In this document: positions 22,862 through 25,841 of the stretch, in pieces
Numbering within the stretch: the stretch's first letter is position 1
Layout: each line of letters opens with the position of its first letter
Made by a program: the position numbers and the translations under genes
Source: Aurantiacibacter gangjinensis
Lineage (GTDB): Bacteria > Pseudomonadota > Alphaproteobacteria > Sphingomonadales > Sphingomonadaceae
Direction of reading: 5' to 3'
NCBI RefSeq assembly: GCF_001886695.1
Contig: NZ_CP018097.1
Span: 620,001 to 684,000 of the forward strand
DNA length: 64,000 nucleotides
The notes under the pieces: model-generated
Database searches by the model: none
Told to the model about the DNA's origin: nothing
The model's input: the letters and a program-made list of their open reading frames with translations, nothing else

Positions 22862-22940
22862 CCGTTCGTCCTGAGCTTGTCGAAGGGCGAATTGGCGAAA
22901 CCTGCGCGGTTTCGTGCTTCGACAGGCTCAGCACGAACGG
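22862..22940. repeat. REP-like inverted repeat before nadC
   Basis: The left arm (22862-22885) begins CCGTTCGTCCTGAGC and the right arm (22917-22940) is its near-complement ending GCACGAACGG, with 22 of 24 positions matching. Sequences of this type are scattered in sphingomonad genomes. The right arm ends six bases before the nadC ATG. Confidence 0.8.
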
Positions 22941-22946
22941 ACAATT

Positions 22947-23816: not shown

Positions 23817-24263
23817 ATGAAGTTGGCGCGCGGGCCGAGGCCGTGGTCCATTCGGCTGTTCGCCATCCTGTTCCTCGCCTCGGCACTGATCCGCTTCGTT
23901 GACGGACTGCTCGATCCGACCACAATGATCGTCGATCTCTTCCGCTGGTTGCCGAATATAACCATCACGCAGGACATTGCCGTCGTCGCGCTCAACGCGC
24001 AATTCACCATCGCATTGATACCGGTCGCGCTGATTTGGTTTCGCGCCAGCCGCATTGCGCGCATCCTGATCGGCGTGATGGTCGGCGTCCGGTTGCTAGC
24101 GCTTTCAGAGCTCGTAGCGGCATGGCAACAATGGGGCGCGCTCGATCCCGTGGAGCCGATAATGCTGGCCTTGTCCGCCGCCGCGCTGGCGCAACTGTTC
24201 ACTCCGTCAGCCAATCGCTGGATTGCGCTCAAGGGGAGGCGTGAGGCCGATGCGTTCGAATAA
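23817..24263 (+). CDS. Small integral membrane protein, unknown function
   Basis: A 148-aa protein with about four hydrophobic segments (IRLFAILFLASALIRFV; FTIALIPVALIWF; ARILIGVMVGVRLLAL; IMLALSAAALAQLF). No family recognised. It starts 10 bases after nadC and overlaps the next gene by 14 bases, suggesting one transcript. Confidence 0.7.
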   Translation: MKLARGPRPWSIRLFAILFLASALIRFVDGLLDPTTMIVDLFRWLPNITITQDIAVVALNAQFTIALIPVALIWFRASRIARILIGVMVGVRLLALSELVAAWQQWGALDPVEPIMLALSAAALAQLFTPSANRWIALKGRREADAFE

Positions 24264-24972
24264 GATCAGCGTGAGGATGGGCATGGCGGCGGCGCTATGT
24301 GCGCTGGTCCCGACAACCGCCCTCGCCCAGGCCTATCAGTGCCGCGTGCCCGATGCGCCGGTCAGCCTGCCGCGCATCGAGCGTGACGGGCCGGTGCGGC
24401 AGATGCCGGTGACGGGATATACTCTGGCGCTCAGCTGGAGCCCGGAATTCTGCCGCTTCCGCGATGACGAGGCGCGCCATGCCCGCCAATGCTCGGGGCG
24501 CGCGGGGCGCTTTGCCTTCGTCGTCCACGGCCTGTGGCCCAATGGCGAGCGGGGCTGGCCGCAATGGTGCCCCACGCGCCGCCAGCCGAGCCAGTCCGAG
24601 GTGCGCGCCAGCATGTGCATGTCGCCCGACGCCGCGCTGATCGCCCGGCAATGGGCGAAGCACGGCAGCTGCATGACACGCGATCCGGACGCCTACCAGC
24701 AGGTCACGCGCATCCTGTGGAACAGCCTGCGCTGGCCCGATTTCGACCGCCTCTCCCGCCGCCGCGACCTGACCGCCGGCGAGATCCGCACCGCCTTCGC
24801 CGATGCCAACCCGTACTGGAATGCGGAGGATGTCGGGCTAGTGCTCAATAGCCGCGGATGGCTGCGCGAAATGCGCCTGTGCTACGGCGCGGACTTCATG
24901 CCGACGGCCTGCGACGCGCGGCGGTATGGTCCAGATGACGGGGACGAGGTGCGCATTTGGCGGGGGCTTTAG
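24250..24972 (+). CDS. Ribonuclease T2 family protein
   Basis: From ATG 24250 the product is 240 aa with a signal peptide ending near TTALAQA. Both catalytic segments are present: H93 in FVVHGLWPNG and H138 in WAKHGSC. Several cysteines are likely disulfide-bonded (C70-range, C107, C141). It is a periplasmic or secreted endoribonuclease cutting single-stranded RNA through a 2',3'-cyclic intermediate. The start overlaps the previous membrane-protein gene. Confidence 0.9.
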   Translation: MRSNKISVRMGMAAALCALVPTTALAQAYQCRVPDAPVSLPRIERDGPVRQMPVTGYTLALSWSPEFCRFRDDEARHARQCSGRAGRFAFVVHGLWPNGERGWPQWCPTRRQPSQSEVRASMCMSPDAALIARQWAKHGSCMTRDPDAYQQVTRILWNSLRWPDFDRLSRRRDLTAGEIRTAFADANPYWNAEDVGLVLNSRGWLREMRLCYGADFMPTACDARRYGPDDGDEVRIWRGL

Positions 24973-24983
24973 GAACCTGCACC

Positions 24984-25015
24984 ACGTCACCCCGGACTTG
25001 ATCCGGGGTCCCGCT
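24984..25015. repeat. Left 32-bp terminal inverted repeat of the GIY-YIG unit
   Basis: Contains the palindromic core CCCCGGACTTGATCCGGGG. Its full 32 bases match the reverse complement of 25341-25372 at 31 of 32 positions. It begins 12 bases after the RNase T2 stop codon. Confidence 0.9.
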
Positions 25016-25034
25016 TATTGTGAGAGTGACAGCC

Positions 25035-25334
25035 ATGGATCGCGAAACGCACGGCGGTTGGCTGTACATCATGGCTGACCGTTATCGTGGCACAATGTAT
25101 GTCGGTATGACTGCCGACTTAGCCGCGCGGATCGTTCAGCACCGCGATGGGTCTGGCTCCAAGTTCTGCGCAGAATACGGACTTACCAAGCTTGTTTGGG
25201 CGGAGAAGATTGCGCCAATCCACCTTTGCATCGAACAGGAAAAGCGCATGAAGAAGTGGCGGCGTGAATGGAAAATCGCGCTAGTCGAAAAGGCTAATCC
25301 TGACTGGAAGGAGCTGTTCGAGCAACTGATCTAG
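25035..25334 (+). CDS. Small GIY-YIG endonuclease domain protein
   Basis: A 99-aa single-domain protein. WLYIMADRYRGTMYVGMT is the GIY-YIG core (Y-I at 11-12, Y-V-G at 22-24), R32 the catalytic arginine and E68 in CIEQEKRMKKW the metal-binding glutamate; N89 fits the final motif. It belongs to the UvrC/Slx1-like small proteins (UPF0213 type). ATG 25035 is chosen; GTG 25020 would add five residues. The gene fills the space between two terminal inverted repeats and may encode the enzyme acting on them. Confidence 0.88.
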   Translation: MDRETHGGWLYIMADRYRGTMYVGMTADLAARIVQHRDGSGSKFCAEYGLTKLVWAEKIAPIHLCIEQEKRMKKWRREWKIALVEKANPDWKELFEQLI

Positions 25335-25340
25335 AAAGAG

Positions 25341-25372
25341 AGCGGGGCCCCGGATCAAGTCCGGGGTGACGT
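25341..25372. repeat. Right 32-bp terminal inverted repeat of the GIY-YIG unit
   Basis: Reverse complement of the left repeat with one mismatch. It starts six bases after the GIY-YIG stop codon and ends 13 bases from the tadA stop codon. Confidence 0.9.
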
Positions 25373-25385
25373 CAAAAAACCGAAA

Positions 25386-25841
25386 TTACCGCCTCTCCCT
25401 GAAAAACCCGCGCAACAATTCTGCCGCTTCAGCCTCACCCATGCCCGAATACACTTCCGGCGCATGCAGGCATTGCTCTTGCGCGAAAACCCGCGCGCCG
25501 TGATCGACCGCGCCGCCTTTCGGGTCCGGCGCGCCATAATAGACGCGCGCGATGCGGGCATGGCTGATGGCGCCTGCGCACATGGCGCACGGTTCCAGCG
25601 TCACATAGAGGTCACAGCCTGTCAGGCGGTCGTCGCCCAGCGCCTTGGCTGCGCGGCGAATCGCTTCGACTTCGGCATGGGCGGTCGGATCGTGGGCGCT
25701 GCGGGTCAGGTTGTAGCCTTCGCCAATGATCTCGCCCTGCTTGACGACCACGGCTCCCACGGGCACTTCGCCGACGCGTGCCGCCTCCTGCGCCAGCGCC
25801 AACGCGCGCTGCATCGGTTCGGGAAGGGGCCATTTCGTCAC
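25386..25841 (-). CDS. tadA: tRNA(Ile/Arg)-type adenosine-34 deaminase
   Basis: A 151-aa zinc deaminase with H55-A-E57 (TAHAEVEAI) and P84-C85-x-x-C88 (LEPCAMC), the cytidine-deaminase-fold active site. It converts A34 of tRNA-Arg(ACG) to inosine. The GTG at 25841 gives the usual N-terminus ([16 protein letters not shown]); a later ATG at 25814 is possible. The longer open frame upstream crosses rpmB on the other strand and is not used. Confidence 0.94.

Follow-up and report, generated by a model that had tools for sequence, protein, structure and literature searches.

The 99-amino acid GIY-YIG nuclease gene described here lies between two inverted, CGTC-tagged REP sequences, and we consider it rather probable (about 0.6) that gene and repeats together form an autonomous REP dimer, whose nuclease is specific for the REP type at its ends and spreads both whole units and gene-less REPs. 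This reading builds on the linkage of gene and REP, the REP specificity of individual nuclease lineages, the way REP counts depend on gene presence, the presence or absence of units at orthologous sites, the recent multiplication of whole units and the dispersal of gene-less dimers that end at the tag. The window analyzed is the whole 64-kb stretch of the Aurantiacibacter gangjinensis genome, in which the unit and its neighbors are arranged as follows:

24223..24972, + strand: RNase T2-like gene (ORF), a neighbor outside the unit used as synteny anchor
24984..25015, + strand: left arm, a CGTC-tagged REP of class A (sequence, hairpin fold)
25035..25334, + strand: gene for the 99-aa GIY-YIG nuclease (ATG ORF, Pfam match, conserved residues)
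25341..25372, - strand: right arm, the class A REP inverted with its tag outward, GACG on the + strand (sequence, hairpin fold)
25386..25838, - strand: tadA-like deaminase gene (ORF), a neighbor outside the unit used as synteny anchor

A preliminary description of this DNA had reported inverted repeats closely surrounding a GIY-YIG gene, and this was confirmed: the arms match at 31 of 32 positions and are separated from the ORF by 19 (left) and 6 (right) bases. Their 25-bp exact inverted match is the longest within 1 kb across the window, the runner-up measuring 15 bp. The REP-like palindrome core noted in the arms was likewise found, as each of them folds into a hairpin with the CGTC tag outward. 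In the left arm, the tag at 24985-24988 is followed by an 8-bp stem, the 5-base loop CTTGA and the tail TCCCGCT; the right arm shows one stem mismatch. The only two class A palindromes of the window are the arms of the unit, which is itself present as a single copy. Members of the CGTC REP superfamily exhibit a CGTC tag, a stem of 8-9 bp, a loop of 4-5 bases, a short tail and dispersed copies, all of which are found for the arms (CGTC, 8-bp stem, 5-base loop and tail CCC when the left arm is scored). These REPs were defined by Di Nocera, De Gregorio and Rocco in 2013, apparently without a dedicated transposase (PMC3733652). The superfamily is rich in alphaproteobacteria and shares inverted dimers with the unit in addition to the hairpin features; it differs in that no associated transposase gene was found for it (PMC3733652), whereas a GIY-YIG gene is located between the REPs here.

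The encoded protein matches the Pfam GIY-YIG domain (PF01541, E 4.6e-10, above the cut-off) and contains the conserved residues Y11, Y22, G24, R32, H36, E69 and N88. Based on this domain match and these catalytic residues, it is assigned to the GIY-YIG nuclease superfamily, and its structure model (pLDDT 90.9) is a high-confidence GIY-YIG fold. The closest solved folds are UPF0213 and Slx1, an enzyme acting on branched DNA structures, at weak E-values; both differ from the window protein in their low sequence identity to it, and we know of no REP association for either. No HUH/Y1 domain is present in the protein, profile searches in NCBIfam and PHROGs returned zero matches and a PADLOC search gave one marginal match. 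The dN/dS ratios of about 0.1-0.2 in most between-species pairs indicate that the nuclease proteins are under purifying selection.

The A. gangjinensis genome (2.72 Mb, 2 contigs) contains six related small GIY-YIG genes, all of which are enclosed by inverted REP pairs of five classes in total. Class A (CCGGACTTGATCCGG) surrounds two genes, the REP tails differing between them, while class B (CCCGCGAAGGCGGG), class C (CTGAACTTGTTTCAG), class D (ATCGCGAG...GCGATCCATGG) and class E (CCCTTCGACAAGCTCAGGG, at locus L018) accompany one gene each. A seventh GIY-YIG match is located inside a 759-aa ORF, presumably UvrC. In pattern searches of the genome, the exact palindrome core turned up 12 times, twice within the window unit, and looser patterns matched 19 class A, 14 class B and 9 class C copies. 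Two observations concern class E. An imperfect inverted pair of this class (CCTGAGCTTGTCGAAGG ... CTTCGACAGGCTCAG) is found between two genes at window positions 22864-22941. At L018 (1492-2190), the nuclease frame crosses the right-hand REP without meeting a stop and continues as a JAB/MPN (desampylase-like) protein, possibly representing a gene fusion made by the unit.

The association of gene and REP extends beyond this genome. Among 119 genomes of the same family, representing 89 genera, 88 carry at least one homologue, with 258 homologues in total and up to 15 per genome. Inverted repeats were scored between the 250-bp flanks of 151 of these homologues and of 300 shifted control positions at the same loci. 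At 133 of the 151 loci they attained a score that was reached by none of the 300 controls; a named REP class common to both sides was identified at 111 loci, again versus 0 of 300. In a second, named set, 55 of 81 loci passed the inverted-repeat test as compared to 2 of 156 controls, including 15 of 25 loci outside the Sphingomonadales (among them Neisseria, Rhodanobacter, Zetaproteobacteria and Nitrospirota). One homologue on the Planktothrix agardhii plasmid p1 has a type IIL restriction-modification gene on one side and DISARM drmA on the other, and is surrounded by GTCATTCTGAG repeats. Three PLSDB "plasmid" records are of chromosome size (N. gonorrhoeae, 2.17 Mb; A. caviae, 4.9 Mb; S. meliloti, 3.7 Mb) and are probably mislabelled.

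In a maximum-likelihood phylogeny of 160 proteins, many forks of which are unresolved for so short a protein, the REP classes required 11 changes. Shuffling all labels raised this number to a mean of 57 (minimum 49), and confining the shuffle to genes of the same genome gave a mean of 44 (minimum 35). The within-genome result shows a pairing of REP and nuclease gene by gene, and the tree indicates that REP type is constant within individual nuclease lineages. Class A palindromes accompany several separate nuclease lineages; consequently, REPs of similar type originated, or were taken up, repeatedly.

REP number follows the gene as well. Genomes with the gene (n=88) contain a median of 17 class A-C REPs versus 1 in genomes without it (n=31; p 4e-10), in statistics that ignore relatedness for genomes spread over 89 genera, and the rank correlation between gene and REP number is 0.71. 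A reversed-pattern control gave zero in nearly every genome. When the copies flanking the genes read are set aside, genomes in which a cognate gene was seen still contain more REPs of the class than those in which all genes seen were of other classes (class A, p 8e-6; class B, p 1e-3; class C, p 2e-6); with 151 of 258 genes read, the latter group may hide cognate genes, which makes these class-by-class tests conservative. Some gene-less genomes (G058, G027, G065) retain 11-24 REPs, which counts against the autonomous-dimer reading; such REPs would be expected from lost or undetected genes.

Comparisons of orthologous sites revealed a patchy distribution of units, most related species lacking them at the three sites examined. 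Of 20 same-genus genomes with both the RNase T2 and the tadA anchor, two carry the unit at this site: that of the window and L132, whose protein is 73% identical (aa) and also REP-flanked. Empty sites were thus found in the RNase T2-tadA regions of relatives, which the preliminary description had singled out for comparison; four have just 2-48 bases between the anchors, others contain unrelated sequence and several harbor no REP. In seven Sphingobium plasmid records, one of them with a frameshift, fnrL and a response regulator enclose a unit, while TomTYG64 and TomTYG74 exhibit a single fused palindrome without a gene and TomTYG72 neither palindrome nor unit. The fused palindrome possibly results from a deletion between the ACCCCGGG repeats of both arms, and such deletions are a possible origin of solo REPs. 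In Azospirillum lipoferum 4B, a unit is situated between sufB and sufC, where three relatives with about 94% identical surroundings have no unit and no REP.

Whole units recur with near-identical sequence in two relatives: four copies (97-98% identical) in the genome G066 and two (98% identical) in G103, in both cases in unrelated surroundings. In a further genome, REP dimers of about 105 bp occur at four places, with a common interior and flanks that are unrelated from the CGTC/GACG ends outward. Since they carry no gene and end at the tag, these dimers resemble non-autonomous derivatives. A target duplication was seen neither at the empty and filled sites compared nor at these dimers; the empty-site junctions have diverged, and no exact insertion point or target rule was read from them. 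In G066 and part of G103, the shared stretch continues outside the tags for another 20-50 bases. Transposition strictly from tag to tag would not be expected to leave such a stretch, which counts against the autonomous-dimer reading. As a separate observation, these stretches at the four G066 units (L037, L053, L055, L065) include GCGGACAT/GTCCGC parts of another repeat. The idea that insertion always occurs into this second GCGGAC/GTCCGC repeat was rejected, as it flanks both sides in just 5 of 150 loci, and no empty copy of it was found in G066. In sum, the sequence comparisons support the view that the unit behaves like a small mobile element. Neither of the patterns named in the preliminary description as speaking against mobility, a fixed locus without repeats or equally abundant palindromes in genomes lacking the gene, was observed.

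The main rival to the autonomous-dimer reading is homing into existing dimers, whereby the nuclease would cut gene-less REP dimers of the same class, host recombination would copy the unit in during repair, and the REPs themselves would spread otherwise. GIY-YIG enzymes are classic homing endonucleases, and those of this type, such as I-TevI and the Seg proteins, belong to the same catalytic superfamily, and selfish spread by cutting is conceivable; these known enzymes differ from the present family in cutting long, unique double-stranded sites and in lacking palindromic terminal repeats. The arms of the unit are the arms of the dimers, the gene-less palindromes of TomTYG64 and TomTYG74 occupy a site at which relatives carry a unit, and the shared G066 flanks could be co-conversion tracts. 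However, the empty sites of TomTYG72, the three Azospirillum relatives and several tadA loci are free of REPs, the TomTYG64 palindrome can equally be read as a deletion scar, and the relation between REP number and gene presence is left unexplained by homing on its own. We regard homing as unlikely. Somewhat more doubtful still is a regulatory role of the Ssn type, in which the nuclease would cut or mark repeats in incoming or exposed ssDNA, thereby tuning transformation or recombination, while the gene would move rarely and the REPs would be kept as sites rather than copies. The Ssn family reportedly comprises GIY-YIG site-specific ssDNA nucleases, the Neisseria member of which is said to bind and cut its repeat and to modulate transformation. 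A gonococcal homologue located among dRS3-like repeats, which may be this Ssn, is 40% identical to the window protein (E 3e-7) and 59% to the paralogue L016, and the purifying selection on the proteins fits such a role as well. Yet selfish spread is suggested by a single genome carrying six copies with different targets, by the recent copying of whole units, by their patchy presence and by dimers with a conserved interior.

The preliminary description had proposed a RAYT-like mobile unit. Its mobility is supported by the absence of the unit from loci in relatives, by recurring units, by the scarcity of REPs without the gene and by the lineage-specific REPs; the likeness to RAYT proved to be one of analogy. 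REP/RAYT and REPIN systems, based on IS200/IS605-related tyrosine transposases, likewise comprise one small gene bounded by matching inverted REPs together with dispersed gene-less dimers, and there, too, REP and enzyme change together. RAYTs differ in being HUH/Y1 enzymes unrelated to GIY-YIG and in their GTAG tag, neither of which was found in the unit. In other bacteria, GTAG REPs border the genes for RAYTs (PMC3733652), and a Y1 domain protein was detected in 21 of the 119 genomes, so a RAYT or other transposase might spread the REPs with the nuclease gene as passenger. This is very improbable, since a domain search of the whole A. gangjinensis genome revealed no Y1 transposase, none was detected in 98 of the 119 genomes, many of them REP-rich, and REP class tracks the GIY-YIG lineage; a RAYT was accordingly rejected as the mobilizer. 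Least credible of all is the reading of the nuclease gene as an ordinary gene of the host that has palindromes on either side by chance or for regulation, for example as terminators. Although REPs often occur downstream of genes (PMC3733652), chance or regulatory flanking is ruled out by the shifted controls, and the REPs on the two sides are of one class, which is distributed in line with the protein tree.

For the autonomous-dimer reading, a mechanism can be proposed in which the nuclease would act as mover of the repeats. The REP would fold into a hairpin whenever the DNA becomes single-stranded, as on the lagging strand or during transformation or repair. The nuclease would then recognize the hairpin of its own class together with the tag and nick at or near the latter, leaving it to host replication and repair to copy the piece or rejoin it at another site. 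The inference of recognition and cutting draws on the REP pairing, the fold model and the activity reported for Neisseria Ssn. Both units and gene-less REPs would thereby spread, as RAYT does for GTAG REPs, with hydrolytic GIY-YIG chemistry replacing the covalent HUH-tyrosine step; the covalent transposition chemistry of RAYTs is not expected for this unit. Since the known GIY-YIG enzymes hydrolyze DNA without rejoining it, host factors would be needed for the joining step.

Part of the nuclease-target pairing may already be covered by the Ssn work of Chenal et al. from 2025. The Ssn family resembles the present one in pairing a small single-domain GIY-YIG protein with a repeated target, and since Ssn reportedly cuts its repeat as ssDNA, nuclease and target are partly known and the chemistry is not wholly new. 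To our knowledge, that work describes no mobile unit with REP-dimer derivatives. In the literature searched, from which the published Ssn work stood apart, we found no paper tying GIY-YIG genes to REPs, nor the mobile-element reading or a tie to CGTC REPs.

Whether by transposition or by homing, the GIY-YIG family is the best candidate enzyme for the CGTC REPs. CGTC REPs, which include the Neisseria dRS3 and Rickettsia RPE-6 and RPE-4 repeats, had been described as lacking a transposase. With a nuclease family that resides inside CGTC REPs, is matched to them by lineage and is predictive of their copy number, the question of the missing enzyme becomes directly testable; the family also offers many natural nuclease-target pairs. 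We would give even odds to the broader proposal that single-domain GIY-YIG nucleases are the dedicated mobilizers of the CGTC REP superfamily across bacteria, forming a second REP system beside RAYT in which palindromes spread by hydrolytic hairpin nicking. If this is true, REP dispersal would have arisen twice, by unrelated chemistry.
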